Part shown: one piece after another, positions 32,700 to 34,581 of the stretch
Layout of the letters: every line of letters begins with the position of its first letter
Position numbering within the stretch: the first letter of the stretch is position 1
Origin: Gammaproteobacteria bacterium
GTDB taxonomy: Bacteria; Pseudomonadota; Gammaproteobacteria; SZUA-140
DNA: 36,057 nt
Direction of reading: 5' to 3'
NCBI GenBank assembly: GCA_026982565.1
Contig: JALSGV010000214.1
Location: 1-36,057 of the forward strand
Translations under genes and position numbers: made by a program
Notes under the pieces: model-generated
Databases searched by the model: none
What the model saw: the letters and a program-made list of their open reading frames with translations, nothing else
What the model was told of the DNA's origin: nothing

Positions 32700-32736
32700 C
32701 GGTGTTGCACAAGGCTGGAAGGGGCGGGGGAATGGC

Positions 32737-33744
32737 ATGAGCGGACAAATCATGATCGAGGCGGATAACATCCATTTTACCTATCCCGATGGGCATGAAG
32801 TCCTGAAGGGCCTCACCTGCAAGATACGCCAGGGTGAGAAAGTGGCGCTGATCGGCCCCAATGGCGCGGGGAAGTCGACATTCATGAGCCACCTGAACGG
32901 GGTGGAACTGGCGACTTCGGGCCGGGTCATCGTGCATGGCATGGAAGTCACGAAGGGGAATCTCAAGGAGATACGCCGCAAGATCGGCATCGTGTTCCAG
33001 GATCCGGACGATCAGCTTTTTTGTCCCACCGTTTTCGATGACGTGGCTTTCGGCCCCCTGAATCTGGGGCTGGAGGAAGACGAGATCCATGCGCGGGTCA
33101 GCGAGGCGCTGTCTGTCGTCGGCCTGGAAGGGTTCGAGGAGCGTTCTTCCTTCCATCTCTCGTTCGGTGAGCGCAAGCGCCTGGCATTGGCGACGGTGCT
33201 GTCCTATCAGCCTGAGATCCTCGTCTTCGACGAGCCGTCCACCAACATGGATCCCATGAACCGCCGCAACATGATCAACTGGCTCAAGGAGACGGACAAG
33301 ACCATCCTGTTGTGTACCCATGACCTGGATATCGCCCTGGAGGTCTGTGACCGCTGCCTGCTGCTGGTGGACGGGCGCATCGAGGCGGACGGCCCGGCCA
33401 CGGAGATCCTCTATAACCGCAGGCTTCTGGAAGACAACAAGCTGGAAATGCCCCTGGCCCTGATGACCCATGAGTTGCTTCATGGCATTTTGCAGGAGCA
33501 GGATATGGATGAGGGGCACCGCCACATCATTGGCCGATTCCTCCACGCCCATCGTCATGCCCACGGCGCGGACGGCCATGCCCATGTCCACCTGCATGCC
33601 CACGAACACGACCACGGGCATTTACACGAGGAAGTGGATGCATCGCATTTTCATGATGATTCCTTGGAAGAGCATGATCAGTCCCATCGCCATCAGGGTC
33701 ATGCTCATTCACACGGCCATCCTCCAAAGATACAAAAGGGGTGA
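32737..33744 (+). CDS. cbiO: ECF transporter ATPase (CbiO/NikO) with a histidine-rich C-terminal tail
   Basis: ABC ATPase that powers the Ni/Co transporter, 335 aa. Walker A is GPNGAGKST (residues 40-48), the Q-loop FQDPDDQLF, the signature LSFGE (a variant of LSGGQ), Walker B ILVFDE and the switch His in CTHDLD. The ATPase core ends near residue 257. Residues 258-335 form an extra tail with 24 His in 78 residues, mostly as His-X-His runs (HAHVHLHAHEHDHGHLH), interspersed with Asp and Glu. Such tails bind nickel, cobalt or zinc in other proteins (HypB, SlyD, Hpn). The role may be metal buffering or allosteric sensing at the cytoplasmic exit; this is inference. The ATG at 32737 is preceded by a purine-rich GGGGCGGGGGAA. 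Confidence 0.92.
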   Translation: MSGQIMIEADNIHFTYPDGHEVLKGLTCKIRQGEKVALIGPNGAGKSTFMSHLNGVELATSGRVIVHGMEVTKGNLKEIRRKIGIVFQDPDDQLFCPTVFDDVAFGPLNLGLEEDEIHARVSEALSVVGLEGFEERSSFHLSFGERKRLALATVLSYQPEILVFDEPSTNMDPMNRRNMINWLKETDKTILLCTHDLDIALEVCDRCLLLVDGRIEADGPATEILYNRRLLEDNKLEMPLALMTHELLHGILQEQDMDEGHRHIIGRFLHAHRHAHGADGHAHVHLHAHEHDHGHLHEEVDASHFHDDSLEEHDQSHRHQGHAHSHGHPPKIQKG

Positions 33745-33752
33745 GTGGCATG

Positions 33753-33794
33753 CCTGGTACTCCGTCAAGGTTATAACCTTGACGGAGTACCAGG
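33753..33794. repeat. perfect 42-bp palindrome
   Basis: Two 21-bp arms, the left starting CCTGGTACTCCGTCAAGG and the right ending in its exact inverse, meet at a TTATAA centre (33771-33776) with no spacer and no mismatch. It begins 9 bp after the cbiO stop. As RNA it would form a very stable hairpin, as DNA a cruciform or a large operator. No T tract follows on the plus strand. The arms encode the same peptide (LRQGYNLDGVPG) on both strands, which produces spurious ORFs. Confidence 0.9.
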
Positions 33795-33903
33795 GACACG
33801 GTGGGGTCTGGCTGGCCCCTTGTATCAGCAGCATGATTTGTTCCCTGGTAGACAAATCCCAGCCTGCTTCACATTCAATTTACCGCTATGGAGGGTAGTT
33901 CCA

Positions 33904-34581
33904 ATGACTGTTTCTTCCGATTTTACGAAAAAATTCGACTTCTCATCCCTGGCCATGCACTGGAAGCTGCTGGTGACCGGTTTCGTCATCGTGCTGGGTG
34001 TGGGCTATCTCACTGCCGCCTTGAACGCCGCTCTGTCCGTGGGGCTCAGCGCCGACGCCATCGCCGATCACTATGGAGACAAGAGTCTTTCCCGGGAAGA
34101 GCATGCCATGATGGAGAAGCAGGGATTCGTGGAAGAGGAGTTCTCTTTCGACGACCTGGATGAGGAAGCGTCGGGCGGTATGGCCATGGACCACGATATG
34201 GCGGGCATGGATCACGACATGTCCGGCATGGACATGGGCGGCGGCGCCATGCATGAGGAGATGAGCGCGGACGATTCGCTGCCGCCCCAGTTGCTGGTCC
34301 AACTGGCGCATATCCACTTGCTCGGGTTCTCCCTGATCCTGATTTCCATCGGCGCCCTGTTTTGCCTGACGCGGCTGTCGGGCGGCGCCAAGTCCCTGCT
34401 GGTATCGGTGCTGTTCCTCAGTTTCCTGGGGGATATGGCCGGGCTCAACCTGACCCGTTTCGTCTCGGACAGTTTTGCCTGGATGACCATGATATCAGGC
34501 ACCCTCATCGGGGTCTGCCTGGCCATCATGATCCTGGTTATCCTGTGGGAAATGTGGGGGCCGCGTCCCGCCGCAGCCTGA
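33904..34581 (+). CDS. membrane protein with Met/His/Asp-rich loop, unknown function
   Basis: I do not recognise the family. The 225-aa protein has four predicted membrane helices (about 20-44, 133-157, 165-185 and 193-217). Between helices 1 and 2 lies a long loop with an acidic part and then residues 93-120, rich in Met, His and Asp, containing MDHDM twice (95-99 and 102-106). Such Met/His clusters are typical of periplasmic Cu(I)/Ag(I)-binding proteins. Helix 2 has two His in AHIHLLGF. The start at 33904 has GGAGG about 9 nt upstream; the frame is open further, but that part is the palindrome. It follows the Ni/Co operon and overlaps the end of the convergent Cu-ATPase gene by 44 bp, so a role in copper handling is a reasonable guess. 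Confidence 0.75.

Follow-up and report, generated by a model that had tools for sequence, protein, structure and literature searches.

A perfect palindrome directly behind a bacterial gene raises the question of whether it is a regulatory site, a product of assembly, or the trace of a mobile element. Such a palindrome is located at positions 33753–33794 of the window analyzed here, a 36,057-nucleotide stretch of contig JALSGV010000214.1 (C214) from the genome of a gammaproteobacterium (GCA_026982565.1; hereafter G000). We assign a probability of roughly 85% to the reading that it is a collapsed MITE remnant, in which two terminal inverted repeats (TIRs) are joined inner end to inner end.

Location and symmetry of the palindrome

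The palindrome, CCTGGTACTCCGTCAAGGTTATAACCTTGACGGAGTACCAGG, consists of two arms of 21 bp, CCTGGTACTCCGTCAAGGTTA and TAACCTTGACGGAGTACCAGG, which are 100% complementary and meet with a spacer of 0 nt. Both the perfect spacerless symmetry and its incompatibility with chance in 36 kb had been claimed in an earlier note on this DNA, and both were confirmed: 1.9e-8 spacerless arms of 21 bp are expected in a sequence of this size, the longest spacerless arm in 30 dinucleotide shuffles was at most 10 bp, and the runner-up within the window measured 9 bp. The palindrome begins 8 bp, and not 9 bp as noted earlier, past the TGA stop codon (33742–33744) of a cbiO/nikO-like ECF transporter ATPase gene (32731–33744, forward strand), which belongs to a nickel/cobalt ECF transporter cluster. 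The encoded ATPase has a long His-rich C-terminal tail (33505–33735) that is also present in its orthologs in G001, a genome of the same genus, and in G007, and that probably binds metal. On the other side, 109 bp separate the end of the palindrome from the likely start of an uncharacterized membrane protein gene (33904–34581, forward strand). This protein had no match in Pfam or NCBIfam, and its relatives are present in other genomes of the family. The palindrome is also enclosed by an imperfect outer inverted repeat (33728–33826), GATACAAAAGGGG / CCCCTTGTATC, which forms part of its predicted RNA fold and is not conserved in G001.

The ATPase and membrane protein genes occur in the same order in G001, and the gap between them contains neither the palindrome nor an arm. 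The block GATTTGTTCCCTGG (33835–33848, forward strand), which lies outside the palindrome and upstream of the membrane protein gene, is identical in G001, and further bases of the gap are kept as well. The distance from the stop codon to this block is 90 bp in the window versus 68 bp in G001, a difference of 22 bp, and elsewhere the two gaps have diverged too far to reveal a clean empty site.

A dispersed element family with the same ends

Further copies of one arm, for which the earlier note had suggested a search, were found in the window's own genome and in other genomes. With up to 3 mismatches allowed, a single arm matched eight places in G000, compared with 0 for a reversed-pattern control. 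The 15-bp GTACTCCGTCAAGGT proved to be the TIR of a dispersed family of non-coding elements. In the window it occupies 33757–33771 on the forward strand and, as the same 15 bp on the reverse strand, 33776–33790, and the 34-bp core between these outer limits (33757–33790) represents the element proper. Cores of 34 bp were identified in C214 and C35 of G000, cores of 30 bp in C60 and C70, and long elements of 262–279 bp in C117, C141, and C151 (n = 3); the C117 element, used as a DNA query, additionally matched fragments in C105, C149, and C51.

A scan of one genome per GTDB species revealed short palindromes with the same ends in six further carriers, mostly labeled as gammaproteobacteria. The carriers include the isolate Sedimenticola hydrogenitrophicus SB48, a Chromatiaceae MAG, a Woeseia MAG, and HyVt MAGs, which we take from their isolate names to be hydrothermal-vent genomes. 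HyVt-486 (G291) contained 67 TIR matches versus 0 for the control. Meanwhile, none of the short palindromes was found outside G000 in the 20 genomes examined from the order, the exact CG type of the palindrome occurred in no other genome among 274 of the class, and the exact TIR strings appeared in no paper in open-access full text.

Long, mid-size, and mini members have common ends with the consensus GTACTC, two variable bases, and TCAAGGT, and they fall into size classes of 30–34, 48–57, approximately 160–180, and approximately 262–300 bp. Two unusually large members of 787 and 527 bp contain only short internal ORFs. The commonest flank pair over complete copies is TA/TA in the context CTA...TAG, and where flanks depart from this, they are usually CA or TG. 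The TA/TA flanks in this context fit insertion into CTAG with duplication of TA, and IS630 is known to insert at TA with a preference for CTAG (PMC2170065, citing Tenzen and Ohtsubo).

The mini copies in C60 and C70 are absent from the orthologous sites of G001. At the C60 copy, a reading frame that continues in G001 stops at the TAG of the element, and the C70 copy is located in front of a serS-like gene. The C60 copy (L019, 1492–1539) is also part of a longer structure, in which the 30-bp mini copy, CTAG, and the symmetric CCCCGCC / GGCGGGG make up a 48-bp palindrome, possibly by template-switch extension into the flank. Entry of the copy into a pre-existing CCCCGCC..GGCGGGG hairpin was considered and dropped, as the orthologous G001 sequence lacks that hairpin.

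Several other repeats were observed alongside these copies. A 53-bp stretch of the C117 element (positions 60–113) recurs at approximately 35 places in G000 with about 80% identity (for example, C201:117098–117151 and C83:15677–15729), many of them less than 200 bp from contig ends, and is another high-copy repeat family. The motif beginning GTAGCCCGGATGGCGCGCAGC in the C60 region (query 1240–1291) has many repeats in G010 and G007 and is likewise a separate repeat family. At two loci (L102 near 1501, minus strand, and L164 near 275), one end is followed by a few bases and then only by GTACTAG; these footprints are shrunken copies, with the second end mostly removed by deletion.

Classification of the family and search for a transposase

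The family agrees with MITEs in that its TIRs are common to dispersed copies, its members are small and non-coding, from the 34-bp core to long members of mostly 262–279 bp, and TA/TA predominates among the flanks of complete copies. The window copy itself is flanked by TG...CA with no direct duplication of a target site, and we therefore term it a remnant rather than an intact MITE.

No DDE_3 transposase was detected in G000, and none of the five DDE_3 transposases identified across G001, G295, and G296 had family ends nearby. Thus, a DDE_3-type transposase linked to the ends, by which IS630/Tc1-mariner elements are recognized, was found in none of these four genomes. Where ends were unpaired, up to 1.5 kb of inward sequence contained no ORF recognizable by eye as a transposase, and no autonomous element with the family ends was found in the loci and genomes examined. 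Plasmid and phage records contained nothing matching the 265-bp member, and viral contigs gave no match.

Proposed origin of the palindrome

The earlier note had listed the footprint of a small inverted-repeat element among its alternatives, and the copies elsewhere strongly support it. In the history that we propose, an element of approximately 264 bp with GTACTC..TCAAGGT ends would have inserted at the TA of a CTAG just behind the ATPase gene; the family members and the palindrome-free gap of the same-genus relative suggest that this happened after the two lineages split. The element would then have lost everything between two direct repeats of TTATAA, probably through replication slippage across a hairpin of its long arms. 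Finally, the CTAG flanks would have been changed to CCTGG and CCAGG, as by very-short-patch repair. We consider the loss of the interior as written to be somewhat favored, and the conversion of the flanks is held to be about equally probable.

The deletion step draws on two long members in HyVt-486 (L130, 647–910, and L133, 733–997; 264 and 265 bp), which carry TTATAA in both arms. Between the terminal 45 bp of each member, no direct repeat exceeds this hexamer in length. When one TTATAA and everything between the two is removed, either element yields GTACTCCGTCAAGGTTATAACCTTGACGGAGTAC, which is exactly window 33757–33790, a product that is computed and not an observed event. The central TTATAA of the palindrome (33771–33776) would accordingly be the one 6-bp repeat left behind and mark the putative deletion junction. 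Among the G000 copies, no long one with TTATAA was seen, and the exact match comes from the presumed vent MAG.

For the flanks, the window contains two CTAG sites against 20 expected, a tenfold depletion, and a vsr gene was identified in C211 of G000 (E value, 4e-30). Very-short-patch repair eliminates CTAG (PMC5337935), and conversion of CTAGG into CCAGG on both strands yields exactly the observed CCTGG and CCAGG. Since CTAG is depleted and vsr is present, we read the outer pentamers as converted CTAGG ends. The left one (33753–33757, forward strand) would be a former CCTAG, holding one TA target duplicate and changed on the other strand, and the right one (33790–33794, forward strand) a former CTAGG, in keeping with the TA/TA flanks of other copies.

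A less probable variant keeps the MITE origin and differs in the last step: a ready-made 34-bp mini-palindrome, plus TA, would have moved in as a unit, mobilized in trans. Within single genomes, unrelated sites do carry paired mini copies of equal size (two of 34 bp and two of 30 bp in G000, two of 48 bp in G291, and two of 57 bp in opposite orientations in G296), and several retain TA on both sides. These pairs hint at independent mobility of the mini forms, but recurrent deletion at the same microhomology is expected to give equal sizes as well. Moreover, two ends that meet without a spacer are sterically difficult for a DDE transposase to act on, and no transposase linked to the ends was found in G000, in other carriers, or between unpaired ends. 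A broader version, which we regard as doubtful, is that the double-end palindromes of 30–57 bp are themselves mobile and constitute the smallest MITE-like elements, copied to new TA/CTAG sites by a transposase or through a single-stranded hairpin intermediate, while template switching from arm to arm would keep the two arms identical.

Possible functions of the palindrome

Whatever its origin, the palindrome could have been retained as a selected RNA hairpin between cbiO and the next gene, acting as a 3′-end stabilizer, RNase III site, or attenuator. The stem is very stable: as RNA, the 42 nt are predicted to fold at -36.5 kcal/mol into a 19-bp stem with a 4-nt loop, and as single-stranded DNA, the folding z is -11.6. 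The position 8 bp past a stop codon also suits such a role, and the C35 copy and one copy in G296 directly adjoin stop codons. Within copies, the two arms differed at 15 positions compared with 32.3 when arms were re-paired between copies within a genome (0 of 20,000 shuffles), a figure that is indicative only, the elements having been collected by their ends. This concordance could reflect subfamily structure, arm-to-arm copying, or selection, and the first of these would be expected to produce it too. The selected hairpin is further opposed by its absence from the G001 ortholog, by the C70 copy, which precedes its neighboring gene instead of following one, and by the lack of a T tract. Overall, we judge a selected hairpin unlikely. 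By analogy to the Neisseria CREE and RNase III, the hairpin behind cbiO, if transcribed, may nevertheless protect the 3′ end of the mRNA or serve in its processing.

The missing T tract had been pointed out in the earlier note, and terminator and promoter scans bore this out, with no terminator-like or promoter-like site. The palindrome is thus not a classical intrinsic terminator, in which a run of T comes after a GC-rich hairpin; the note had offered a terminator as one alternative. Rfam gave nothing above the gathering score and only sub-threshold, hairpin-like microRNA matches. The note had also proposed a resolution site, which found nothing in support, and had reasoned from the instability of long spacerless palindromes, an argument overstated for a length of 42 bp; the E. 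coli study used palindromes of 246–460 bp (PMC4245961).

A large operator serving the metal-related gene downstream, likewise suggested earlier, would account for the palindromic form and the position upstream of that gene, but it is contradicted by the occurrence of the same ends at unrelated loci and in other genomes and by the lack of conservation at the orthologous promoter of G001, which has no palindrome although GATTTGTTCCCTGG is conserved there; we consider it very improbable. A selected operator is argued against because the occurrence is lineage-specific and at unrelated genes. An assembly artefact in the form of a false inverted junction, conceivable in a genome of 214 contigs, is just as improbable, as 42 bp is shorter than an ordinary read and comparable mini-palindromes exist at other sites of the assembly and in the isolate S. 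hydrogenitrophicus SB48. The palindrome probably has no selected role; the likeliest reading is a relic of a mobile element with a neutral or mildly modulating effect, and not an operator.

Implications and comparison with known elements

Under the proposed reading, a perfect palindrome becomes a readable history of insertion, collapse at a 6-bp repeat, and a target site eroded through mismatch repair. The case also illustrates that mobile elements can leave perfect hairpins behind genes, which are easily taken for operators or terminators. Additionally, a TIR family present in several gammaproteobacterial genomes is named, and its smallest members offer a test case for the minimum length of a mobile element.

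The family resembles MITEs of the Tc1/mariner-IS630 type, which are short, non-coding, dispersed, and bounded by TIRs, and TA/TA in a CTAG context is the commonest flank pair here. In contrast to them, the window copy has no interior and is flanked by TG/CA, and an IS630-type transposase with these ends was not found. The Neisseria CREE is similarly bounded by TIRs, targets TA with some CA ends, occurs in several length classes, and forms an mRNA hairpin that RNase III can bind (PMC2649163). Its sequence is different, however, and its minimum length is 69–73 bp compared with 30–57 bp here. QMITE2 of Coxiella is a MITE whose shortened forms resemble simple repetitive palindromes (PMC5896051), as do the mini forms of the present family. 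The Coxiella elements have direct repeats of 7–11 nt and a GTAG REP, the tetranucleotide GTAG at the stem foot together with a RAYT transposase being the mark of REP elements, whereas the family described here has TA flanks and elements that start with GTAC.
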